NCBI RefSeq assembly: GCF_947500795.1
Contig: NZ_CANMTE010000001.1
Location: 310,001 to 374,000 of the forward strand
DNA: 64,000 bases
Origin: an uncultured Gelidibacter sp.
Lineage (GTDB): Bacteria; Bacteroidota; Bacteroidia; Flavobacteriales; Flavobacteriaceae
Direction: 5' to 3'
Shown in pieces: positions 18,319 to 33,712 of this stretch. Numbering within the stretch: the stretch's first letter is position 1; every line of letters starts with the position of its first letter. Below the pieces are notes generated by a model. It was not told the origin of the DNA and did no database searches. It was given only the letters and a program-made list of their open reading frames with translations. The position numbers and the translations under genes are program-made.

Positions 18319-18355
18319 AAAGAAAGAGACACGTGTTGTGCCTCTTTCTTTTTTT
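18319..18355 (+). terminator. Rho-independent terminator of the SusCD operon
   Basis: Inverted repeat AAAGAAAGAG / CTCTTTCTTT with further pairing (CAC/GTG) in the loop, followed by a run of Ts to 18355. It separates the SusCD-DUF4397 operon from the GHL10 gene. Confidence 0.85.
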
Positions 18356-18418
18356 ATAAACGCATTTTGTCCGTTGCCACGGCATTTTGAAATTTGTCTC
18401 ATTTTAATTCACAATCCT

Positions 18419-19969
18419 ATGTCCTTCAATTTTAAATCCACCACCATCCTTTTACTGTGTCTTACAGTATTAAGCGCGTGTAAATCGTCCAAGCCTTTGG
18501 TTTCTACAAATGAGTCTACTGACCAAACCGTAACGTCCAGGCCTGAAGTGATGCGCGAATTTCGTGCCGCATGGATTGCTACTGTGGCGAATATCAACTG
18601 GCCAAGCCAACCCGGTTTAACCCCAAAAGAACAGCAGGATGAGGCGATAGCACTGTTGGATCTGTTAAAAACGCATAACTACAACGCTGTTGTTTTTCAG
18701 GCGAGACCGCAGGCAGATGCCATGTATCCGAGCCAATTGGAACCTTGGTCCTTTTTCTTGACCGGAGAGATTGGAAAAGCACCAGAACCGTTTTATGATC
18801 CGTTGGAGTTTTGGATAAACGCCGCGCACGACCGTGGCTTGGAATTGCACGTATGGTTAAATCCGTACCGCGCGCACCATTTTGATGGTGGCGAAGTGAC
18901 CGATAAGTCGTTAGTTACAAAGCACTCAGAATTTATAGTCGGATTAAAAAATGGCATGTGGTGGATGGATCCGTCCAAAAAAGCCACACAAGACCATTCT
19001 GCCGCGGTGGTAATGGACCTTGTAAAACGCTATGATATTGATGGCGTTCACTTTGACGATTATTTTTATCCGTATGCTTCGTATAATGAGGGCAAGGATT
19101 TTCCTGATGCTGAAAGCTATCAAGACTATTTAACTTCGGGAGGAACACTAGCGAAGGCGGATTGGCGAAGAGCCGCCGTAAATACGTTTGTGGAGCGTGT
19201 GTATACGGAGATTAAAGCAGAAAAGCCAGAAGTGAAGTTCGGGATTAGTCCGTTCGGGATTTGGCGTCCTGGCCATCCAGCATCCATTGCGGGAATGGAT
19301 CAGTATAATGAGTTGTATGCGGATGCGAAGTTATGGTTGAATAAAGGGTGGATCGATTATTTCACCCCACAGTTGTATTGGAAAATCAATCAGTCGGCAC
19401 AAAGTTTCCCGGTGCTTTTAGGGTGGTGGGAACGTGAAAACACACAGAAACGCCACTTATGGCCAGGCATGAGTTTGTATGCTGGTGGCGATGCGGCAGC
19501 TATTGATGAGGTTATCAATCAGATTATGATTACTCGCGGCATGGTGCCAGAAAGTAAGGGTACGGTGCATTGGAGTATCAAACCCTTGGTAACACACCCA
19601 AGTCTTGCACAAGCGTTGTTAGACGGACCTTACAAGCAACAGGCGTTGGTGCCTGCAAGTCCGTGGTTGGATCATAAAGCGCCGAAAGCCCCTGTGGTTA
19701 CCACAAAAAAGAATGCTGATACAGTAACCATCACTTGGCAGCATACCGAGGTAAACGATGTGTTTCAGTGGGTCGTGTTTTATAAATACGGCACCCGTTG
19801 GACTTATAAAATATTGGACAAAAATCAGCGGACTTTTGAATTGGCCATGTATGCTGATGCCGAGAAAAAGAATGCCTTAACGGCCATTGGTGTATCTGCA
19901 GTTGATAGAACCGGAAATGAAAGTCCTTTTAAGGAGATTGTGATTCCTGCAAATTTGAGCAACGATTAA
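18419..19969 (+). CDS. GHL10-family glycosyl hydrolase lipoprotein (DigH/YngK-like), copy 1
   Basis: A 516-residue lipoprotein (signal ending TVLSAC). The central GHL10 (DUF187) barrel runs from about residue 40 (MREFRAAWIATVANINWPS) through VVFQARPQADAMYPS, HVWLNPYRAHH, DIDGVHFDDYFYPY and FGISPFGIWRP to about residue 400, then a fibronectin-III-like tail (APVVTTKKNADTVTITWQH). E. coli DigH (YddW), a member of this family, cleaves denuded peptidoglycan glycan strands, so a cell-wall glycan substrate is plausible. The ATG at 18419 is used because it places the lipobox correctly; a longer frame from 18338 runs through the upstream terminator. A close paralogue lies at 32015-33712. Confidence 0.9.
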   Translation: MSFNFKSTTILLLCLTVLSACKSSKPLVSTNESTDQTVTSRPEVMREFRAAWIATVANINWPSQPGLTPKEQQDEAIALLDLLKTHNYNAVVFQARPQADAMYPSQLEPWSFFLTGEIGKAPEPFYDPLEFWINAAHDRGLELHVWLNPYRAHHFDGGEVTDKSLVTKHSEFIVGLKNGMWWMDPSKKATQDHSAAVVMDLVKRYDIDGVHFDDYFYPYASYNEGKDFPDAESYQDYLTSGGTLAKADWRRAAVNTFVERVYTEIKAEKPEVKFGISPFGIWRPGHPASIAGMDQYNELYADAKLWLNKGWIDYFTPQLYWKINQSAQSFPVLLGWWERENTQKRHLWPGMSLYAGGDAAAIDEVINQIMITRGMVPESKGTVHWSIKPLVTHPSLAQALLDGPYKQQALVPASPWLDHKAPKAPVVTTKKNADTVTITWQHTEVNDVFQWVVFYKYGTRWTYKILDKNQRTFELAMYADAEKKNALTAIGVSAVDRTGNESPFKEIVIPANLSND

Positions 19970-23618: not shown

Positions 23619-24044
23619 TTACATTTCACCATTCCTAGAATCTGAAGTCAATTGATCAGACTGACTTTCTTTCCAGTTTTTATAATCTTCAATATCGCTA
23701 GAAAGCAATCGTATACAAAACGCGAATACAGCGGCGTCATCTATAAATCCAACTATAGGAATAAAATCTGGGATGGCGTCAATAGGAGATAATACATAAG
23801 CCAATGCTGCACCTATGGAAACAATGCTCAACCACGGAATTTGAGTATAGACACCTTTGGAATAATCTTTTATTAAGGAGAACAACAGCTTGAAATCCTC
23901 CCAATATTCTAAGAGGTTTTTGTTGTTTTTAAATTTAGATTTAAGGGCTTCATTATTTTTTATAAGGTTACTCAAATCTTCTTTCGAAAACTTTTTAGCC
24001 GCCTTTTCATGCTCCTCTTTAGCTTGTTGATTTGTAAACTTCAT
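23619..24044 (-). CDS. DUF1232 (YkvA-like) membrane-associated protein
   Basis: A 141-residue protein. The N-terminal 60 residues are charged and helical (KEEHEKAAKKFSKEDLSN...). The C-terminal part carries the DUF1232 signature AYVLSPIDAIPDFIPIVGFIDDAAVF with two short hydrophobic spans. Family function is unknown, possibly membrane-stress related. It is convergent with marC. The ATG at 24044 begins MKFTNQQAKEEH. Confidence 0.88.
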   Translation of the reverse strand: MKFTNQQAKEEHEKAAKKFSKEDLSNLIKNNEALKSKFKNNKNLLEYWEDFKLLFSLIKDYSKGVYTQIPWLSIVSIGAALAYVLSPIDAIPDFIPIVGFIDDAAVFAFCIRLLSSDIEDYKNWKESQSDQLTSDSRNGEM

Positions 24045-24441
24045 TCTGTTTATAAATTGGTTTAATGATAGATTTTATAGATCGTTTTGAGTAAAACGAC
24101 TAAATTTTTATTCCATTGTGCCTGATACCTGAAATTGATGTTTTCAGAGTCTCAAACGCTCTGTTTTTTATGAAAATTACTTCAAATCTATGATTTTTAG
24201 TAGATGAAAAGAACAATTTAAAGCAATAATTTTAGAATGCCAATAAGCTTCCATTTCTAATATTTTCAGCATAGTCGTGGCATAATTTAATAAATGCGGA
24301 ATTCCGCACAGGCATAAACGTGCTTCTACGTATTTTGTCGGAAATTTCGTGGATAGAGTTGAGAAGCGTGTAGAATTTTCAAAAAACTTGCTATATTAAC
24401 CAATTCGAATCTTATAATTATTGTGCTAATATAAATAGACC
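24045..24441. other. Spacer at the left edge of the defence-like island
   Basis: No gene is supported in these 397 bases. They contain a perfect 14-bp palindrome TGCGGAATTCCGCA at 24295-24308, then a more GC-rich stretch with a near-repeat (GGAATTCC, GGAAATTTC) and two partly inverted blocks (GTGCTTCTACGT near 24320 and GAGAAGCGTGTAG near 24361). The composition differs from the flanks. It may be the scar or boundary of the island that follows. A TATAAT-like run sits at about 24413-24418, before the MazG-like gene. Confidence 0.4.
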
Positions 24442-24771
24442 ATGAACGAAATAAAAAAGACAATTGATAAATTGCTAAAGTTCAGAGATGAAAGAGAATG
24501 GGAGCAATTTCATAATTCAAAAGATTTGGCATTGGCATTATCAATTGAGGCTAGTGAATTATTAGAGCTTTTCTTATGGAAGGAGAATGAAGATTTTGAT
24601 AAAGAGAAGTTAGAAGATGAATTGGCCGATGTTTTATCTTATGGATTATTGTTGGCTCACAAACATAACTTGGATATAGCCGATATCATAAATAAGAAAA
24701 TCCTCAAGAATTCTAAGAAATATCCGGTCACAAAAGCGAAAGGGACTTCAAAGAAGTATAACGAATTATGA
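24442..24771 (+). CDS. MazG-like nucleotide pyrophosphohydrolase
   Basis: A 109-residue all-alpha NTP pyrophosphatase of the MazG/RS21-C6 type. The metal-binding signature is visible: ALSIEASELLELFLW (the ExxE pair) followed by ELADVLSYGLLLAH (the second ExxD pair). Small MazG-like enzymes hydrolyse dNTPs or modified nucleotides to monophosphates and PPi. The stop overlaps the ATG of the helicase fusion by four bases (ATGA), so expression is coupled. In this context it could deplete or sense nucleotides during phage infection, which is inference. The gene is AT-rich compared with the SusCD region. Confidence 0.88.
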   Translation: MNEIKKTIDKLLKFRDEREWEQFHNSKDLALALSIEASELLELFLWKENEDFDKEKLEDELADVLSYGLLLAHKHNLDIADIINKKILKNSKKYPVTKAKGTSKKYNEL

Positions 24772-26975
24772 ATGCATCCTTTGAGTTATCTGTTGAAGTT
24801 TCTGAGCGCTATGATTTTAATAAAAATTCATTAGATGTTATCAATGAAAATATTTGGGTTAAAAATCAATGGCCATTAGTTTATTTTATACAAAATGATT
24901 CGAAAAAAGTAGCTTACGTTGGAGAGTCGACAAATTTTTCGAGTCGGATTAAAAACCATTTAGCTAATCCCGATAAAGCAAAGGCTTTCAATCAAATTTC
25001 AATTATTGGTTCTGATAAGTTTAATAAGTCTGTCGCTTTAGATATTGAATCGAAATTAATTCAGTATATATCTTCAGAAGGGTCCTACGAGCTGCACAAT
25101 GGCAACTATGGCTTAATAAATCATAATTACTATCAACAAGATCTTTACAAAAATCTGTTTACAACCATTTGGGACAAGTTAATAGAGAATAAAATTGTAA
25201 GTAAGTCGCTAAAGGAAATTGAAAACACAGAACTTTTTAAATACTCTCCGTACAAATCGCTTAATGAGGATCAATATAATTCCGTAATCGAGATTATGGA
25301 AGCCCTACAAAAAGAAAATTCTAGTAAGATATTTATCAAGGGGAGTGCAGGAACAGGAAAAACAATTCTTGCGACATATTTGATCAAGCTTCTCATATCA
25401 GATGTGTCAGAAGCTAATAAAGATGATTTCAGTGAAAACGAAATCTATGAAATATCACTAATTAGGGCTTTCAAAGATAAATATCCAAATGCAGAAATTG
25501 GATTTGTGGTCGCTATGAGTTCCTTAAGAACAACTCTACAGAATGTGTTCTCTAAAACTCCTGGTTTGAACAAATCTATGGTTATTAGTCCTACCGAAAC
25601 CTTTAAGAAAAAATATGACTTACTTATTGTGGATGAAGCCCATAGATTAAGGCAATATAAAAATATAAGTTGGCGCGGTGCTTTTAAGAAGGCTAATGAG
25701 AGATTAGGATTAGATGATACAGGAACAGAACTAGATTGGATAATTGCAAATAGTAGGCATCAAATATTTTTTTATGATTCGGCTCAATCAGTAAAACCAT
25801 CTGACATTGATGCTTCTAAATTTGAAACACTTATTACTGATTCAGACTCATTAATAATTGAATTAAAATCGCAAATGCGTTCGCAGGGAGGTAATGATTA
25901 CATAAAATTTGTAGATGACATTTTGAATGTTAAGCGCGACAATAAAGAAAAGTACATTTCCGACAAATATGAATTAATGGTTTATGACTCTTTAAAAGAT
26001 TTGTACGCAAAGCTTAAGATTAGGGAGGAAGAGCATGGTCTTTGTCGATTAGTCGCAGGGTTTTCATGGCCGTGGCTATCAGATGTACGAGGAAAGACAC
26101 CTGAAGCCATAGATATTGAAATTGACGGACTACAGTTTCAGTGGAATAGAACACCTAATGATTGGGTGAGTTCACCCAATGCTTTTAATGAAATTGGTAG
26201 TATTCATACTACCCAAGGTTATGACTTGAACTACGCCGGAATTATTTTCGGTGAAGAAATTGTCTTTAATAAGCAAACTCAAGAAATCGAGATTGACAGG
26301 GCGAAGTACTTTGATAAGTATGGGAAACAACAAACGAACGATAGCGAATTAAAATCCTACATTATAAATATTTACAAAACAATCATGTATAGAGCTATTA
26401 AGGGCACCTATGTCTATGCTTGTGATGAGGGTTTAAGAGACTATTTAAAAACATACATTCCTACCTATAAAGCAGAAAGTAAGTTGCGAATCCTTCAATT
26501 TGAAGATGTTAAACCATTCGTAAACTCGGTGCCAGTAGTTGATATTTATGCTGCGGCTGGAGGATTTAGCGATTTACAAATTCAATCACAACTTGAAGAG
26601 TTTGATTGGGTTGAATTGCCCATAAACATATCTGTTTCCGAAGGATACTTTGTTTGTCAAGTCATTGGAGAATCTATGAACAAAATGATCCCGAACGGTT
26701 CCTGGTGCTTGTTCAAGCAGTATTCAGGGGGTTCTAGGGAAGGGAAAATAGTTTTGGTCGAACACTATAATATTCAAGATTCAGATTTTGGAGCTGGTTA
26801 TACAATAAAGTCATATCACAGTGAAAAGCTATTTACTGAGGATGGTTGGTCTCATCAGTCCATTGTACTAAAACCCCTTTCTTCTGATTCAACACATGAA
26901 AACATTATTTTGGAAGATAATGAAATTGAAGAACTAAAGGTAATAGGAGAGTTTGTTAGGGTGTTAGATATATAA
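24768..26975 (+). CDS. GIY-YIG - DUF2075 helicase - S24 peptidase fusion protein
   Basis: A 735-residue protein with three recognisable parts. Residues about 33-110 resemble a GIY-YIG nuclease (WPLVYFIQNDSKKVAYVGEST, Arg in SRIKNH, and Glu in DIESKLIQYI). Residues about 165-590 are a DUF2075-type superfamily 1 helicase with Walker A GSAGTGKT (192-199), Walker B LLIVDEAHRLRQ (about 284-295), KSQMRSQGG and a late motif GSIHTTQGYDLNYAGIIFG. Residues about 610-735 look like a LexA/UmuD S24 domain with VIGESM (Ser636) and TIKSYH (Lys681) as the Ser-Lys dyad. The order suggests a nuclease-helicase whose activity is tuned by self-cleavage or by the S24 fold as a damage sensor. It is coupled to MazG and lies upstream of McrBC. 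Confidence 0.82.
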   Translation: MNASFELSVEVSERYDFNKNSLDVINENIWVKNQWPLVYFIQNDSKKVAYVGESTNFSSRIKNHLANPDKAKAFNQISIIGSDKFNKSVALDIESKLIQYISSEGSYELHNGNYGLINHNYYQQDLYKNLFTTIWDKLIENKIVSKSLKEIENTELFKYSPYKSLNEDQYNSVIEIMEALQKENSSKIFIKGSAGTGKTILATYLIKLLISDVSEANKDDFSENEIYEISLIRAFKDKYPNAEIGFVVAMSSLRTTLQNVFSKTPGLNKSMVISPTETFKKKYDLLIVDEAHRLRQYKNISWRGAFKKANERLGLDDTGTELDWIIANSRHQIFFYDSAQSVKPSDIDASKFETLITDSDSLIIELKSQMRSQGGNDYIKFVDDILNVKRDNKEKYISDKYELMVYDSLKDLYAKLKIREEEHGLCRLVAGFSWPWLSDVRGKTPEAIDIEIDGLQFQWNRTPNDWVSSPNAFNEIGSIHTTQGYDLNYAGIIFGEEIVFNKQTQEIEIDRAKYFDKYGKQQTNDSELKSYIINIYKTIMYRAIKGTYVYACDEGLRDYLKTYIPTYKAESKLRILQFEDVKPFVNSVPVVDIYAAAGGFSDLQIQSQLEEFDWVELPINISVSEGYFVCQVIGESMNKMIPNGSWCLFKQYSGGSREGKIVLVEHYNIQDSDFGAGYTIKSYHSEKLFTEDGWSHQSIVLKPLSSDSTHENIILEDNEIEELKVIGEFVRVLDI

Positions 26976-27205
26976 TTCATAGGGTAAATGAAGTAATTCG
27001 AATATCTCTTGAATTGATTTTGTAAGAACTATTATTTATTGAAGATGGTTTTAGAAGTCAGATTATTGAATATAATAATTTATGACTTGAAATGGCAATG
27101 TGGTTTATAGTCTTATTATAAATATTATTCAAATAACTCGAATGTGGTATTGAGTGTTATTTGATCAAGACAAGTAGAAATGCTTATTAACTTAAAAAAT
27201 GAAAT

Positions 27206-30200
27206 ATGTTTAGCAAAGTCGACAAAAATCACATCCTACTTGGTATTAGGGACTTTGAAGAAAGAGGATTGCCAAATGAATTTGGACCATCTTCAACTTA
27301 TGATGTAGTGATCGATGGAAAGTCATACCCACCAAAAGCTGTTATGGCTTATGCAAACTATCACGCTTCTGGAAGAGAAATAGAAAATTATTTTAAAGGG
27401 GGAGAAGGAACAGAATGTTTTAATGCCTTTATAAACAATGGGTTTAATGTGGTTAAAAAAGAAAATAAAAATATGCATCAAAAGCTTTACTTGCTAAAAC
27501 AACAATTTTTAGACACGTGGCCAATTGAAAAATTGGAGCGAATGACATTAGAAGAATATACCAATCTGGACAAAACTTCTTTTTGCTACTGGGTGGAAGC
27601 TATTACAACCGATTTAGGAAGCATTTGGGGAGGATCGGCCTACAAATTTGGAATATTTAAAAGAAGAGAATTAGAATCGGAAAATTATAATGAAAAAAGA
27701 AAAACAGACGGCGTTTATGCGTGGTATGGAAAATACGGCGATACTAAAGAGGAGGTTTTTGAAAATATAAAATCAATTGTAATTAGTATAGCCAAGTCAG
27801 TGCAATCAAATAATCTTGAAGACATTGACAAGATAGATTTAGGAAATGGCTTAAAATGGAAGATTGCTTTCTTATATGGCGATTTTAATTGTTTAAACGT
27901 GTTTAAGTTAGATGCTTTAAGAGTTATTGCCTCTAATTTAGGAATTGAGTATTCCAATAAAACACCAATTTCTCAATTTCATAGAAAAATTGTGGCAATA
28001 AAATCAGAGTCAGACAATTATTTTACTTGGAGTCATGAACTTTGGAAACAATATGAAACCGGGTTAATTGATGTAAAAAGGGACTTTGCGCTATGGCTTA
28101 ATAAAAACACCTTTGAATCATATCGCGCGTATTTGGGATATTCCACTGAAGGAATTGAAAAGAGGTTAGATGAAATTAATGGTTATTTTGATGACGTCAA
28201 TTTTTTTCTAGTTGACCCAAAGAAAATTAATGATTTAGTGAATACCATCTTGTTTATGATGAGTAAAAAGGAGCGTGTAAAAAATCCAAACTTTGTGGAG
28301 TATGACTCTAAAAATAGTAATGGTATACCAAAAGCAATCTTGGGTAAAAATAACTACATTAAATATTTAAAAGAGAAATTTGAATATTCAACTCCAAACT
28401 ATTGGATTTTTCAAGGTAATCCAAGCATTTATAACATCACTGAAGCCTTATATGCAGGTCATTTAAAAAGTTGGAAAGTAGCAGCCCATAAAGAAAGTAT
28501 TCGCGTTGGAGATAAAATAATTCTTTGGCAAACGGGAGGGAATGCAGGATGCTATGCTTTTGCTGAGGTGGCTTCAGAAGTTGAAGTATTTAAAGAGGAT
28601 GAAATTGAGCTAAGATATTATAGTAATCCAAGTGCGAATTCTGAAGCAGAAAGAGTAAAAATTAGGATCATTAAAAATTTAGCTGATGCCCCTATTTTGT
28701 GGAGCGACATAAAGGATAACCTAATTTTTTCAAATTTTAAAGCTGGGAATCAAGGCACAAATTTTAGCGCCACTGAAGAAGAGTACCAAATGCTTTTGGA
28801 GATTTCTGAAGCTCGTAAATACCCTGAAATGGATGCGGAAAAAGAATTGCTAGAGATTATAGGGTTTCATGCTAGACATGATGTCTTGGATTTTTTCGAG
28901 TTTTTAGATGCTATTATGGAACGTTTCAATATCACAATTGATGATGAACGTGTTGTTACTGGAACATCCCATAAAAATTTGAATCTTACCATCGGTCAGC
29001 GGTATTGTTTTAATTTATTTCCGCCATTTCGATCAAAAGGGAGATTTGGAATAATATCATCACACCGTTTAAATGATACCAGCGATCCTTTTAAAGGAAA
29101 TGGAGAACAGCCATTTTACACGCATTTTAATGGCTTCCAGGATGTTTTAGCAAATAAAAATGCTACATTCTCCGCTATTGAAAATGAACTGAATCGTTCC
29201 ACGAAATCAAGCTTTTCAGAGTTTAATAATCCTTTTTATCGTAAAGCAATATTTGATAAGGAGTATAGAAAATTAATTTTAGGCACTTCAGCATCTAGTT
29301 TAAATGAAGCGTCATTATCCTACAAGAAAATGCCAAGCAATCCTACAAACCAAATTTTATATGGGCCTCCAGGAACAGGGAAAACTTATTATTTAAAAGA
29401 TCAATTGTTTGATCGATACATTTCAAAAGAAACATCAATTTCAAAAGAACAGCACTTTGAAACAGTGGTGAGTAAGTGTTCTTGGTGGCAAGTCATTGCA
29501 ATCGCACTTTTAGATTTAAAAAAGGCTAAGGTTTCAGATATTTTTAATCATGAGTGGGTTCAGAAAAAAGCAAGTTTGTCTAACTCGAAAACCATAAGAC
29601 CGACACTTTGGGGACAACTCCAAAGTCACACCACTCTAGAATGTGACTATGTGAATGTTACAAATAGGCAACAGCCTTTAATATTCAACAAAACAGAAGA
29701 TTCCTACTGGGAAATTCTAGAAGAAGAGGTTGAAGAATTGGTGCCTGAATTATTTACATTAAGAGACTCAGTTGAAAATTACAATCCAAGTCCAAATAAA
29801 AAGATTAAACATTATGATTTTGTAACCTTCCACCAATCCTTCGCCTACGAAGATTTTATAGAAGGTATAAAACCGATACTTCCAGAGACAGATGTGGATT
29901 TGGAGGAATCGAAAGATTTGGGTTATAAAATTGAGGATGGAGTTTTCAAAAGCATCTGTATTCGAGCCAAAAATGATCCCGATAATAGATATGCCATTTT
30001 TATTGATGAAATTAATAGGGGCAATGTTTCTGCAATTTTCGGAGAGTTGATTACGTTGATTGAAGTTGATAAACGACTGGGTAAAAAGAACGAAATCGTT
30101 ATTAAATTGCCATATTCAAAAAAAGAATTTGGTGTTCCTTCAAATCTAGATATTTATGGCACAATGAACACGGCAGATCGCTCTGTGGAAGCGTTGGATA

Positions 30201-30646
30201 CCGCTCTAAGGCGTCGATTTGAATTTAAAGAGATGATGCCAGATTGTAGTGTTATTGAAGATGAATGGGTTGAGGGCATTCAACTTTCGGAAGTATTAAA
30301 AAGAATTAACCAGCGTATAGAATTGCTAATTGATAGAGATCATACCATTGGGCATTCATATTTTGTAAATGTAAATACGCCTAAAAAATTGTCTGAAGCC
30401 TTTAATAACAAGATTGTGCCATTGTTACAGGAATATTTTTATGGCGATTATGGTAAAATTGGATTGGTGTTAGGGAAGGGATTTGTAGAAATTTTAAAAA
30501 ATGACAAAATTGGTTTCGCAAACTTTACTTATGAAAATGCTGATGATTTTAAAATGCCAAGTTACAATCTTAAACAAGTTACTGAAGAGAATGTACTTGA
30601 TGCTGTAGCACAATTACTTGGTATAAAAGAAATGGTGTCCGAATAA
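27206..30646 (+). CDS. McrB-type GTPase with ScoMcrA-like head and EVE domain
   Basis: A 1146-residue motor and recognition subunit of a McrBC-type modification-dependent restriction system. Residues 1-90 resemble the head domain of ScoMcrA-like enzymes (DVVIDGKSYPPKAVMAYAN...). Residues about 395-525 form an EVE domain (NYWIFQGNPSIYNITEAL...GDKIILWQTGGNAGCYAFAEV), a reader of modified bases. An unassigned region covers about 540-690 (FNLFPPFRSKGRFGI). The AAA+ GTPase has Walker A GPPGTGKT near 720, Walker B IFIDEINRGN near 932, the McrB signature NTADRS near 987 and RRRFEFKEMMP as arginine-finger region. McrC starts directly after its stop. Likely targets are phage or foreign DNA with modified cytosine; the specific base is not known. 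Confidence 0.9.
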   Translation: MFSKVDKNHILLGIRDFEERGLPNEFGPSSTYDVVIDGKSYPPKAVMAYANYHASGREIENYFKGGEGTECFNAFINNGFNVVKKENKNMHQKLYLLKQQFLDTWPIEKLERMTLEEYTNLDKTSFCYWVEAITTDLGSIWGGSAYKFGIFKRRELESENYNEKRKTDGVYAWYGKYGDTKEEVFENIKSIVISIAKSVQSNNLEDIDKIDLGNGLKWKIAFLYGDFNCLNVFKLDALRVIASNLGIEYSNKTPISQFHRKIVAIKSESDNYFTWSHELWKQYETGLIDVKRDFALWLNKNTFESYRAYLGYSTEGIEKRLDEINGYFDDVNFFLVDPKKINDLVNTILFMMSKKERVKNPNFVEYDSKNSNGIPKAILGKNNYIKYLKEKFEYSTPNYWIFQGNPSIYNITEALYAGHLKSWKVAAHKESIRVGDKIILWQTGGNAGCYAFAEVASEVEVFKEDEIELRYYSNPSANSEAERVKIRIIKNLADAPILWSDIKDNLIFSNFKAGNQGTNFSATEEEYQMLLEISEARKYPEMDAEKELLEIIGFHARHDVLDFFEFLDAIMERFNITIDDERVVTGTSHKNLNLTIGQRYCFNLFPPFRSKGRFGIISSHRLNDTSDPFKGNGEQPFYTHFNGFQDVLANKNATFSAIENELNRSTKSSFSEFNNPFYRKAIFDKEYRKLILGTSASSLNEASLSYKKMPSNPTNQILYGPPGTGKTYYLKDQLFDRYISKETSISKEQHFETVVSKCSWWQVIAIALLDLKKAKVSDIFNHEWVQKKASLSNSKTIRPTLWGQLQSHTTLECDYVNVTNRQQPLIFNKTEDSYWEILEEEVEELVPELFTLRDSVENYNPSPNKKIKHYDFVTFHQSFAYEDFIEGIKPILPETDVDLEESKDLGYKIEDGVFKSICIRAKNDPDNRYAIFIDEINRGNVSAIFGELITLIEVDKRLGKKNEIVIKLPYSKKEFGVPSNLDIYGTMNTADRSVEALDTALRRRFEFKEMMPDCSVIEDEWVEGIQLSEVLKRINQRIELLIDRDHTIGHSYFVNVNTPKKLSEAFNNKIVPLLQEYFYGDYGKIGLVLGKGFVEILKNDKIGFANFTYENADDFKMPSYNLKQVTEENVLDAVAQLLGIKEMVSE

Positions 30647-31894
30647 TTGAAAAAACTGAGCAACATATCTGTTTTTGAGCATCAACGCCTAGTTGTTGGT
30701 GACCATGGATTTAAACAAACCCATTTGGATGCTTTACTTAAATTGAATGAATATCATGATGGGAATTATTTTGAACCCATTGCTAAAGGCATTAAATTTA
30801 ATCAGTATGTAGGCGTCATTCAGGTGGATGGCTTAACTATTGAAATTAATCCTAAGGCGGATAAAGATGACGATGATTATAAGTGGAAAGGTGTGTTGCT
30901 AAAGATGCTTCGCGCATGCGGTAAGCTAAAAGCAGAATCTTCTGGTGCAGCAAACGTCAAAAGACAACATCTTAATCTATTAGAAGTGTATTTTGAATTG
31001 TATCTGCATGAGGTAGAATCCCTAGTCAGAAAAGGACTAATTAAAAAGTATAGAAAACAAACCCATAATACAAAAGCTTTAAAGGGTAAGTTAGAATTCT
31101 CAGATCATATTCGGCATAATTGTATTCATAAAGAGCGTTTTTACACCACGCATCAGGTGTATGATCATAATCACTTTTTACATCAAGTCTTATTTAAGGC
31201 CTTAACAATTGTGGACCAGTTTACAAAAGGATCAAGACTTCAAGATGTCACAAATAGAGTCCTACTAAATTTTCCAGAAGTAAACACTAAACCAATTACA
31301 GCAAAACAATTAAATGCTATTCAAATAGACAGGAAAACTAAAAGCTATACTTATGCTTTAGAATTGGCAAGACTCATTATCTTAAATTATTCGCCAGATA
31401 TTTCAAGTGGAAAAGAAAAAATGTTGTCGCTTTTATTTGATATGAATGAACTGTGGGAAACTTATATCCTAAAAGAACTTCATAAAGCATGTCATGGAAC
31501 CACAATTGAAGTTTCCGGGCAGGAATCGAAGTCTTTTTGGGGGAATAACAGCCTAAGGCCAGATGTTGTATTGCGGCAAGGGAACAAAGTATTTATAATT
31601 GACACCAAATGGAAGCGACCTCATAAAAGTTCAGCTTCTGTTAGTGATTTACGTCAAATGTATGCCTATTGCCGTTTTTGGGATGCAGAAAAAGCGATGC
31701 TTTTGTATCCTGGGACGTATTCTGAAAACAAATTTAAATCCTATTTGACTGATGATTATTCAAAAGATCATGAAGATAATCACAATCAAATTGAGCATCA
31801 ATGTAAAATGGGATTTGTATCGGTTTTAAATGATTTTAATAATGACTTGGATTCTAGGATAGGGGATAAAATATTGGGGTTGTTGTTTGAGTAG
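30647..31894 (+). CDS. McrC-type nuclease subunit of the McrBC system
   Basis: A 415-residue protein with the McrC N-terminal domain (residues about 1-270, including GVIQVDGLTIEINPKAD and KGKLEFSDHIRHNCIHKERFYTTHQVYDHN) and a C-terminal PD-(D/E)xK nuclease: LRPDVVLRQGN (Asp near 305) and IIDTKWKRP (Asp-x-Lys near 318-320). It cuts DNA when driven by the McrB ring. The predicted start is a TTG that directly abuts the McrB stop codon, indicating strong translational coupling. No alternative ATG fits the conserved N-terminus. Confidence 0.92.
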   Translation: MKKLSNISVFEHQRLVVGDHGFKQTHLDALLKLNEYHDGNYFEPIAKGIKFNQYVGVIQVDGLTIEINPKADKDDDDYKWKGVLLKMLRACGKLKAESSGAANVKRQHLNLLEVYFELYLHEVESLVRKGLIKKYRKQTHNTKALKGKLEFSDHIRHNCIHKERFYTTHQVYDHNHFLHQVLFKALTIVDQFTKGSRLQDVTNRVLLNFPEVNTKPITAKQLNAIQIDRKTKSYTYALELARLIILNYSPDISSGKEKMLSLLFDMNELWETYILKELHKACHGTTIEVSGQESKSFWGNNSLRPDVVLRQGNKVFIIDTKWKRPHKSSASVSDLRQMYAYCRFWDAEKAMLLYPGTYSENKFKSYLTDDYSKDHEDNHNQIEHQCKMGFVSVLNDFNNDLDSRIGDKILGLLFE

Positions 31895-32014
31895 GTTGTT
31901 GATTGGAAAATATCAAACTTTAAATAAATTACCTTAAATCCACTATAAATGTTAAATCCTTTCTCACATTCGATTTAAATTTTAACATTTGCCAATTATT
32001 ATCTCCTAACTTTT

Positions 32015-33712
32015 ATGTCGCTTAAACTTAAGTCTGTTTTAACACTCATGCTCTTTAGTGTAGCATTCCATTCGTCTATTTCTCAGGAAGTCACACGACC
32101 TGAAATTTCAACTAATGAAGTGCCAAATGTGGGTGAACTATCGCAGCCCTCAGGTTCCGAAACCCAAAAGGATAGTGCTACAGAATTTACAGCCGACGAC
32201 ACAGAAGGCCTTGTTGAATTTACGGCAGATAGGGAAACAGCAGCACCAACTAACGACGTTCCAAAATTTATACAAAGTCCTTATGTGATGCGCGAGTTCA
32301 GAGCCGCGTGGGTGGCTACCGTTGCCAATATCAACTGGCCAAGTAGAAACGGGTTGTCCACCCAACAGCAGCAGGATGAGGCCATCAAATTATTGGATTT
32401 CTTAAAAGCACATAATTATAATGCGGTTATTTTTCAGGCACGTCCTCAGGGAGATGCCTTGTATGAAAGCCATTTGGAGCCATGGTCGTTCTTTTTATCG
32501 GGCGAAGTTGGTGCAGCACCGTCGCCGTGGTATGATCCGCTTCAGTTCTGGATAGATGCCGCGCATGAACGCGGGTTGGAATTGCACGTGTGGTTGAATC
32601 CGTATCGCGCACATCACAGTACAGGTGGTCCCGTGGCGCCTAAATCCTTAGTGAAAACCAGTCCTGACATTATGGTGAGTTTAAGGAATGGTATGTGGTG
32701 GATGGATCCTTCCAAAAAGGCGACCCAAGACCATTCTTCAGCTGTTGTGATGGATATCGTAAAACGCTATGATATTGACGGCATTCATTTTGACGATTAC
32801 TTTTATCCGTATGCGGAATATAACGGCGGGCAGGATTTTCCAGATGCTGAGAGTTATCAGGCCTACCTAAAATCGGGAGGGAAACTCTCAAAAGCAGATT
32901 GGCGAAGAGCCGCAGTAAATACTTTTGTAAAGCGCATCTATAACGAAATTAAAGCGGAGAAGCCGGAAGTGAAATTCGGCATTAGCCCGTTTGGCATTTG
33001 GAGACCTGGCTTCCCGAAATCGGTTAGGGGCTTAGATCAATATAATGAACTGTACGCTGATGCGAAGCTGTGGTTGAATGAAGGGTGGATTGATTATTTT
33101 ACACCGCAATTGTATTGGAAAATCAATAAACCAGGCCAAAGTTTTCCGTTGTTGTTGGAATGGTGGGAGACTGAAAACACCCAAAAACGCCATTTATGGC
33201 CTGGAATCAGAATTGATTACGGTAGAAATGCCGCCAATGTGGATGAAACCATCAACCAGATTGAATTAACACGTAACAAGGCTGCTGTAAGTATGGGCAC
33301 GGCGCATTGGAGTATTGGGTCCTTAGTAAACGACCCAAATCTTACCAAAGCCTTGGTGGAAGGTCCGTATAAAAAACAAGCCTTGGTACCTGCAAGTCCG
33401 TGGCTCAAATCTGCGCTGCCGGAAGCGCCTGTCGTCAAAGCTAAAATTGAGGGTAATGTGGTTTCCATTTCCTGGGATCATGAAACATCAGAATCGGTGT
33501 TCAGATGGGTGCTATTCTATAAATATGCCGATACTTGGGAATATGTGATTTTAGACAAGACTAAAAGCACGGTTGAATTGCCACTGCATCGCGGCACATT
33601 GAAGAGTAAAAAACCTTTAACCAGTATTGGTGTTACTGCGGTAGATCGTATAGGAAACCAGAGCAGTTTTAATGCCATTGCGATAGGGAATACGCTGCTT
33701 GGTTCTTCTTAG
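32015..33712 (+). CDS. GHL10-family glycosyl hydrolase (DigH/YngK-like), copy 2
   Basis: A 565-residue secreted protein with a signal peptide (MSLKLKSVLTLMLFSVAFHSSISQ) and no lipobox, an acidic linker of about 65 residues rich in Glu, Thr and Asp, then a GHL10 barrel nearly superimposable on copy 1: MREFRAAWVATVANINWPS, HVWLNPYRAHH, NGMWWMDPSKKATQDHS, DIDGIHFDDYFYPY, FGISPFGIWRPG, ending in a fibronectin-III-like domain. The two differ in anchoring (soluble here, lipoprotein in copy 1). It directly follows the defence-like genes. Likely substrate: peptidoglycan-type glycan, by analogy with DigH. Evidence for a gene duplication is strong. Confidence 0.9.
   Translation: MSLKLKSVLTLMLFSVAFHSSISQEVTRPEISTNEVPNVGELSQPSGSETQKDSATEFTADDTEGLVEFTADRETAAPTNDVPKFIQSPYVMREFRAAWVATVANINWPSRNGLSTQQQQDEAIKLLDFLKAHNYNAVIFQARPQGDALYESHLEPWSFFLSGEVGAAPSPWYDPLQFWIDAAHERGLELHVWLNPYRAHHSTGGPVAPKSLVKTSPDIMVSLRNGMWWMDPSKKATQDHSSAVVMDIVKRYDIDGIHFDDYFYPYAEYNGGQDFPDAESYQAYLKSGGKLSKADWRRAAVNTFVKRIYNEIKAEKPEVKFGISPFGIWRPGFPKSVRGLDQYNELYADAKLWLNEGWIDYFTPQLYWKINKPGQSFPLLLEWWETENTQKRHLWPGIRIDYGRNAANVDETINQIELTRNKAAVSMGTAHWSIGSLVNDPNLTKALVEGPYKKQALVPASPWLKSALPEAPVVKAKIEGNVVSISWDHETSESVFRWVLFYKYADTWEYVILDKTKSTVELPLHRGTLKSKKPLTSIGVTAVDRIGNQSSFNAIAIGNTLLGSS

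Follow-up and report, generated by a model that had tools for sequence, protein, structure and literature searches.

A LexA-type S24 tail on a MazG-paired GIY-YIG/helicase protein: a possible self-limiting, restriction-like module in an uncultured Gelidibacter

What could bring together a nuclease-helicase, a peptidase domain of the LexA/UmuD/CI type, and a nucleotide pyrophosphohydrolase? The question is raised by two genes in a stretch of 64,000 nucleotides from an uncultured Gelidibacter sp. (assembly GCF_947500795.1, contig NZ_CANMTE010000001.1, positions 310,001 to 374,000), here called the window and numbered from its first letter. The upstream gene (24442..24771, + strand) encodes a MazG-like all-alpha nucleotide pyrophosphohydrolase, dCTP-pyrophosphatase-like, and the downstream gene (24768..26975, + strand), defined by its open reading frame (ORF), Pfam matches, and alignment, encodes a 735-amino-acid (aa) fusion of a GIY-YIG domain, a Schlafen (SLFN) group 3 helicase, and a Peptidase S24 domain. 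The MazG stop codon overlaps the fusion start (ATGA); a first-pass annotation of the window had described this overlap, and both ORFs lie where it placed them. The GIY-YIG/helicase/S24 fusion is a conserved family, mostly in Bacteroidota, with MazG as its constant partner. Our tentative preference, to which we give a little less than an even chance, is that the pair is a mobile, type IV restriction-like module, in which a dCTPase-like enzyme would clean the nucleotide pool and the tail would act as an autoproteolytic, RecA-responsive switch.

A MazG/nuclease-helicase pair conserved in Bacteroidota

All four domains that the first-pass annotation had assigned to the pair (MazG, GIY-YIG, a DUF2075 helicase, and S24) exceed the Pfam gathering scores. 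The MazG-like protein matches PF12643 (8.5e-18, over the cut-off), and the fusion comprises, all on the + strand, a GIY-YIG nuclease domain at residues ~33-120 (24864..25127; PF01541 5.2e-06, match 37-85), an SLFN-type helicase domain at residues ~164-560 (25257..26447; PF09848 1.3e-62, match 188-553), and the S24 module at residues 586-735 (26523..26972; PF00717 1.9e-05, match 595-728). PF09848 (SLFN-g3_helicase) is the former DUF2075. Both Walker motifs, A (GxAGTGK, 192-198) and B (DE, 289-290), are intact, as the annotation had read them.

A scan of named species genomes for the S24 module, which kept the 80 best of 255 relatives and so may have missed rarer fusions, yielded 79 distinct loci. 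Four loci at contig starts, where the gene is represented by its 3' part alone (L040, L050, L060, and L075), were left out of the architecture counts; in L040 and L075 an in-frame stop lies ahead of the open part. The remaining 75 loci comprise 67 with the architecture of the window (type A) and eight with the order PLD/helicase/DUF3427/S24 (type B). MazG is encoded upstream in all 67 type A loci, directly in 66 and 615 bp away in L025, and the same 4-base overlap with the fusion recurs in 56 of the 66 adjacent pairs, whereas in type B a NUDIX gene is found upstream (8/8). The two partners are never exchanged between types across the 75 loci. With MazG directly upstream of 66 such genes among the 79 loci, the three-domain order and gene neighbourhood that had been described from the window are more than a chance arrangement. 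By record titles and the phylum of the genera named there, or by tree labels, 77 of the 79 loci belong to Bacteroidota, one to a gammaproteobacterial metagenome-assembled genome (L044), and one carries no group name (L064). Of 395 genomes sampled evenly across the phylum, 32 matched, 18 of them with the S24 module at an expectation value (E) <1e-30; the partial matches in the other 14 (5e-6 or weaker) were not counted. In a collection of phage records, four matched the fusion, each over less than 80% of the query, and no S24 form was seen among them.

The catalytic residues of the family are retained throughout. In the 72 type A sequences (pairwise identity 41-96%), the GIY-YIG domain has Y39, Y50, R60, H64, E94, N111, and N113 in 72/72, including the GIY/YIG tyrosines, Arg, and catalytic Glu expected of such nucleases (Y39, Y50, R60, and E94), and the helicase has K198, D289, E290, Q340, R371, Q483, and R542, likewise in 72/72. 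An AlphaFold model of the fusion, computed from 47 sequences (the window protein plus 46 from among the remaining 71 of type A), has a mean pLDDT of 83.4 and a pTM of 0.65. Its top Foldseek match is human SLFN11 (7zel, 1.9e-08), with Upf1 and RecD2 also matched; a profile of the full-length fusion had no match among Protein Data Bank (PDB) sequences. The PF09848 helicase is thus shared with the Schlafen group 3 helicases (SLFN5/11/14), but the fusion has GIY-YIG at its N-terminus, and the AlbA-like Schlafen core domain was not among the Pfam matches listed (25 of 26 matched families), so that it falls outside the Schlafens proper. The fusion fits no catalogued PADLOC defence system: it matched 10 families partially and mostly weakly, the best being PDC-S41 (1e-10), AbiO (8.4e-10), and PDC-S14 (2.6e-09).

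The MazG partner had no PADLOC family match. Its PDB sequence matches include the pyrophosphatase 4qgp (1.5e-16) and dCTP pyrophosphatase 1 (DCTPP1, or RS21-C6; 5.4e-15), the latter being the nearest PDB family besides 4qgp within the MazG superfamily. Four acidic metal ligands in the arrangement ExxE ... ExxD (E36, E39, E60, and D63) are present in 68/68 partners, as are W20, H24, and W46, which we take to be pocket residues of DCTPP1-type enzymes. On these sequence criteria the window MazG appears closest to dCTP pyrophosphatases; it differs from DCTPP1 in being the bacterial operon partner of a nuclease, and its dCTP-type substrate is putative.

The S24 tail and the proteins that share it

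The tail is predicted to have the C-terminal fold of LexA and CI. The fusion model matches a lambda repressor-RecA filament (8gmu, rank 28, TM-score on target 0.75) and LexA (1jhe, rank 38, TM-score on target 0.71), matches that, judged from these targets, fall on the S24 part; within that region, the loop 603-611 has pLDDT <50. Among PDB sequences, the S24 profile had a single weak match, to a phage protein, which was judged irrelevant. Ser636 (codon 26673..26675, + strand) and Lys681 (codon 26808..26810, + strand), the dyad named in the first-pass annotation, are present as the predicted nucleophile and general base, and a LexA-like Ala-Gly pair 38 residues ahead of Ser636 marks Ala597-Gly598 (26556..26561, + strand) as the candidate self-cleavage site from alignment conservation. 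Among the 72 type A sequences, collected with two peptide patterns of which one holds Ser636 and neither holds Lys681 or Ala597-Gly598, Ser636, Lys681, and Ala597 are invariant and residue 598 is Gly in 70 and Ser in the other two; the equivalents of all four are invariant in 9/9 type B proteins. The residues at the predicted site read [AVI]AA/G in 68/72 type A and AAA/G in 9/9 type B proteins (the slash marks the predicted cut).

Conservation of the dyad in homologues, on which the earlier proposal had been staked beforehand, extends to loci found with the GIY-YIG/helicase part alone: 10 of these 12 have S24, with Ser636, Lys681, Ala597, and Gly598 in 10/10, although frames here were chosen partly by the Ser-containing motif, which every full-length frame in this set has. 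The 10 include the window and a broken copy (L132); the window, L127 (the same as L083), and L134 (the same as L015) are also among the 72. The exceptions are L137, a fragment, and L129, which lacks S24. At L129:1492-3183, MazG and a 563-aa GIY-YIG/helicase are encoded, and no S24 remnant was seen by eye in the three frames just downstream.

The fusion thus has in common with LexA, UmuD, and lambda CI the Ser-Lys dyad, the upstream Ala-Gly, and the predicted fold. It differs in that the N-terminal partner is a nuclease-helicase rather than a DNA-binding domain or short arm, and in that the tail occurs on three nuclease-helicase architectures, the third split between frames. The host genome encodes RecA; a search of it gave no LexA match, and the only other Peptidase_S24 match found there is an XRE-S24 regulator (L149:1195-1965). 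This regulator adjoins a DnaE-like gene and an exonuclease/GIY-YIG gene (both named by eye), and is perhaps a damage-response regulator.

Restriction of the S24 module to GIY-YIG/helicase proteins was rejected, as the same module ends a SauUSI-like protein. In the type B locus L016, the first 945 residues match PLDc_2, ResIII, Helicase_C, and DUF3427, S24 follows, and a NUDIX gene lies upstream; its S24 shares 51% identity with the window's, though the nuclease-helicases differ in domain make-up. Judged by architecture, a type B protein minus its S24 tail is SauUSI. According to PMC3874153, SauUSI is a proven restriction enzyme dependent on 5-methylcytosine or 5-hydroxymethylcytosine (m5C/hm5C), and PMC7913695 describes it as active without any S24 and as dimerising via its nuclease domains. 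The C-terminal end of SauUSI is an SRA reader, behind which type B, otherwise of the same domain order, adds S24, and both kinds pair with a small pyrophosphohydrolase. The window protein, in contrast, has GIY-YIG for PLD, an SLFN-type helicase, and the S24 tail, without an SRA reader; Pfam gave no DUF3427 match in it, so that it does not belong with SauUSI as defined by PLD, a helicase-like ATPase, and an SRA/DUF3427 reader. The nearest PDB match of the L016 NUDIX protein is a putative CTP pyrophosphohydrolase (3gwy), followed by MutT (1mut) and a CTP pyrophosphohydrolase (2rrk), about equal to each other.

Type A and SauUSI-type genes stand side by side in L055, L073, L147, and L174. The first two are the only loci among the 75 with both S24-bearing types: an Arenibacter contig (L055:1316-9747) has a complete MazG/type A pair and then a complete NUDIX/type B pair, ~2.2 kb apart and both with S24, and L073 has a type A pair together with type B in pieces. 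A single origin of the type B tails is disfavoured, since the tree puts seven rows together and L058 and L094 inside type A; two changes are counted on this tree, of which well supported branches force only one. These two tree positions make repeated transfer of the S24 module between types likely. L058 and L094 are also the two in which the NUDIX gene stops 1 base short of the helicase start, rather than overlapping it by 8.

Relatives without S24 show a similar pairing. Among seven Bacteroidota loci with S24-less SLFN-helicase genes, found with the GIY-YIG/helicase query, MazG is adjacent in five (L138-L142; not L143 or L144). The N-terminal domain of the L138-L144 helicases has an invariant D80...E98-L-K100 and, read by eye, appears PD-(D/E)XK-like. 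Such PD-(D/E)XK-like/SLFN helicase proteins with MazG (L138-L142, L182, and L184) share the MazG partner and the SLFN helicase with the window pair; they have a D..ExK N-terminus where the window has GIY-YIG, and the seven Bacteroidota members have no S24. On a Halomonas plasmid (L146:4185-6655), a PD-(D/E)XK-like/SLFN helicase, its N-terminal domain 50% identical to that of L140, is accompanied by an S24 module in an overlapping frame and a MazG-like ORF downstream, and appears to be a third architecture carrying the tail. On the Lactiplantibacillus plantarum plasmid L174 and the contig L147, a SauUSI homologue, MazG, and GIY-YIG/SLFN genes are consecutive, all without S24. L147, though filed as a bacteriophage from human faeces, may be of bacterial and not of phage origin. 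NUDIX precedes S24-less SauUSI homologues in three of four loci whose upstream side is visible (L179, L180, and the Staphylococcus aureus locus L181, with its broken helicase frame; L147 is the exception). Of 508 plasmid records with a relative of type B, three were examined for it, plus L174, the upstream side of which is not covered. A figure legend in PMC7641849 likewise places MutT beside SauUSI homologues in Streptococcus.

The low-GC island and its surroundings

The first-pass annotation treated the two genes as a coupled system. The pair stands, but the unit is larger: MazG and the fusion head a four-gene island of low GC content (24045..32014, no strand assigned) that continues with an EVE-McrB and an McrC gene, and lies between a DUF1232 gene at its left border (23619-24044, - strand) and a gene starting at 32015. 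GC content is 0.31-0.37 per kb across 24-32 kb, compared with 0.36-0.46 in the adjoining kilobases, most of which it falls below. The third gene (27206..30646, + strand) encodes a 1146-aa McrB-like protein with EVE (residues 398-531; PF01878 1e-11) and AAA_5 (PF07728 5.7e-11) domains, and the fourth encodes McrC (30647..31894, + strand; PF10117 5.7e-68). These downstream neighbours, as distinct from the fusion, fit McrBC (an McrB GTPase with a reader domain, plus McrC) by their EVE, AAA_5, and McrBC (PF10117) domains; the NCBIfam McrB model matches the 27206-30646 protein at 2.9e-33, yet under the model's cut-off. Residues 86-282 of the McrB-like protein, apart from the EVE and AAA domains, match the PADLOC model PD-T4-1 (3.3e-28).

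In two genomes of the same genus, G005 (L165) and G001 (L166), the homologues of the island flanks are ~420 bp and ~710 bp apart, respectively, compared with 7970 bp in the window, and no ORF of at least 40 aa lies between them in either. The island is missing as a whole at this site in both. The other six of eight same-genus regions lack the left-flank homologue and say nothing on island absence. Of the 98 genomes in the relatives search, 5, the window's own counted, have a full-length relative of the fusion, and none of the eight other same-genus genomes has one.

Scans for promoters, terminators, and a flavobacterial promoter pattern gave nothing over chance level, and a 121-base stretch upstream, suspected of being a repeat, had no second copy among the loci compared. 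Paralogous genes at 18338-19969 and 32015-33712 bracket the region, 12 kb apart, and homologues of both kinds occur in several same-genus genomes. In G008 (L168:6500-13421), the counterpart of the gene at 32015 is preceded, at a distance of ~2.6 kb, by a type I restriction system, and this chromosomal spot may thus be a restriction-gene hotspot.

Among the first five loci, three (the window, L013, and L015) have McrBC or GmrSD next to the fusion. The L013 neighbours are McrC and an McrB with MrcB_N instead of the EVE domain of the window's downstream genes, and L012 and L014 are accompanied by a PLD-like/DUF3841 pair and an integrase. Type I restriction, DUF3578, DUF262, or CRISPR genes are neighbours of the S24-less relatives in several plasmid copies.

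Possible roles of the pair and of its tail

The closest functional anchor for the fusion is, by analogy from genomic association, type IV restriction, the modification-dependent class to which SauUSI and McrBC belong. In the explanation that we tentatively favour, the GIY-YIG/SLFN-helicase protein would be an ATP-driven nuclease directed at foreign DNA, working in parallel, and perhaps jointly, with such enzymes. MazG would hydrolyse dCTP-type nucleotides, probably 5-modified dCTP, and may also starve phage. As modification-dependent nucleases attack DNA with modified cytosine, removal of modified dCTP would keep these marker bases out of the host chromosome. The S24 tail would be an active LexA-type autoprotease, which RecA filaments on single-stranded DNA would induce to cut at Ala597-Gly598; the presence of RecA in the host and the lack of a LexA match there make a switch at the protein level plausible. 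The cut would leave a nuclease-helicase part of 597 residues ending in -Ala-Ala, which would be passed to ClpXP, so that self-inflicted DNA damage would destroy the nuclease, as a built-in form of restriction alleviation. In LexA, the N-terminal fragment has a -VAA end and is broken down by ClpXP. The similarity of the new -AA terminus to that fragment, and the ClpX-mediated alleviation of type I restriction (EcoKI) given in PMC12707154, incline us toward an off-switch.

Several observations weigh against this explanation. No recognisable modified-base reader was found in type A, so that modification dependence is proposed by analogy. In the 12 plasmid or phage S24-less relatives counted (neighbours were examined in these and L146, 13 of 41 such records with a fusion relative), MazG is adjacent in five (L147, L148, L174, L182, and L184) and not in L145, L173, L175-L178, or L183. 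The existence of S24-less relatives also makes the switch optional. The conservation of Ser among the 72 is inflated by its place in a scan pattern, and the [AV]AA/G residues may mirror cleavage specificity alone, with no degron. McrBC adjoins the fusion only at the window and L013, and GmrSD only at L015; in a phmmer screen with 15 reference queries, neither was found near the 75 named loci, where the only hits were type B genes beside two loci, compared with one HsdM in eight control regions. Enrichment in defence islands was not supported: PADLOC matched 202 families in 135 downstream neighbours of the 75 loci and 153 in 135 controls, with no clear difference, the controls, which themselves include a type I system, being drawn at random from 159 ORFs (from same-genus regions and from the window beyond the island limits).

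The tail could turn the enzyme on as well as off, and the first-pass annotation had considered only the former. In that case, which we regard as rather unlikely but the strongest of the alternatives, the tail would restrain the nuclease-helicase until RecA filaments, formed upon phage entry or replication damage, prompted cleavage, and the freed residues 1-597 would degrade DNA as an effector triggered by infection or damage. UmuD is activated by cleavage. The part left after the cut corresponds to the complete S24-less relatives, and SauUSI, in the account cited above, dimerises via its nuclease domains and is active with no S24; cleavage should therefore leave a whole nuclease-helicase, which fits an on-switch. 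However, the -AA terminus predicted for 68/72 type A and 9/9 type B proteins resembles that of the degraded LexA fragment, and a helicase-nuclease activated at each DNA damage event would be costly unless abortive. Given cleavage, we lean only slightly to the off-switch.

An improbable, but still credible, role lies in the response to DNA damage or replication stress and not in defence, with the Schlafen-like helicase-nuclease processing stalled forks, MazG or NUDIX cleaning damaged dNTPs, and S24 providing the link to RecA. SLFN11 as the top structural match, MutT/MazG partners as pool sanitisers, S24 as an SOS sensor family, and the lack of visible defence-gene enrichment are all consistent with such a role. 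Against it stand the occurrence of the genes as an island, missing from all eight other same-genus genomes, the same tail on a SauUSI-type restriction enzyme, the McrBC or GmrSD neighbours in three of the first five loci, and the restriction and CRISPR genes beside several plasmid relatives. Least probable of all is a non-cleaving S24 that serves in dimerisation (a function S24 domains also have) or RecA docking, with its catalytic residues kept for fold or specificity, as Ser, Lys, and Ala-Gly persist in 70-72 of 72 sequences at a minimum pairwise identity of 41% and in all nine type B proteins.

S24 proteases, SauUSI, MazG, and GIY-YIG nucleases are all already known; what appears to be new is the S24-capped restriction-like pair. 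The first-pass annotation knew of no described system with this exact architecture, and none was found in the open-access literature, nor was any biochemical work on the fusion or any description of S24 fused to a nuclease-helicase, an absence that, with open-access sources only, is weak evidence. S24 is not mentioned by that term in the body of PMC3874153, PMC7159879, PMC7641849, PMC12839542, or PMC12707154.

More generally, though we think it doubtful in full, there may be a class of restriction-like nucleases governed by their own LexA-type tail, in which self-cleavage at AA/G, triggered by RecA filaments, would hand the enzyme to ClpXP and achieve alleviation in cis, the tail being a portable module on three unrelated nuclease domains (GIY-YIG, PLD, and PD-(D/E)XK-like) with their helicases, paired with modified-nucleotide pyrophosphatases that would spare host DNA the marker bases. 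If true, the favoured explanation would join the SOS autoprotease to type IV restriction, two subjects not found linked in the literature searched, and would explain the small MutT/MazG enzymes beside SauUSI- and Schlafen-type helicases as pool cleaners that guard against marking the cell's own DNA. With one S24 module on unrelated nucleases, nature has provided a clean domain-swap experiment, and the pair would offer a simple test of how cells with RecA but no LexA match survive modification-dependent nucleases after self-damage.

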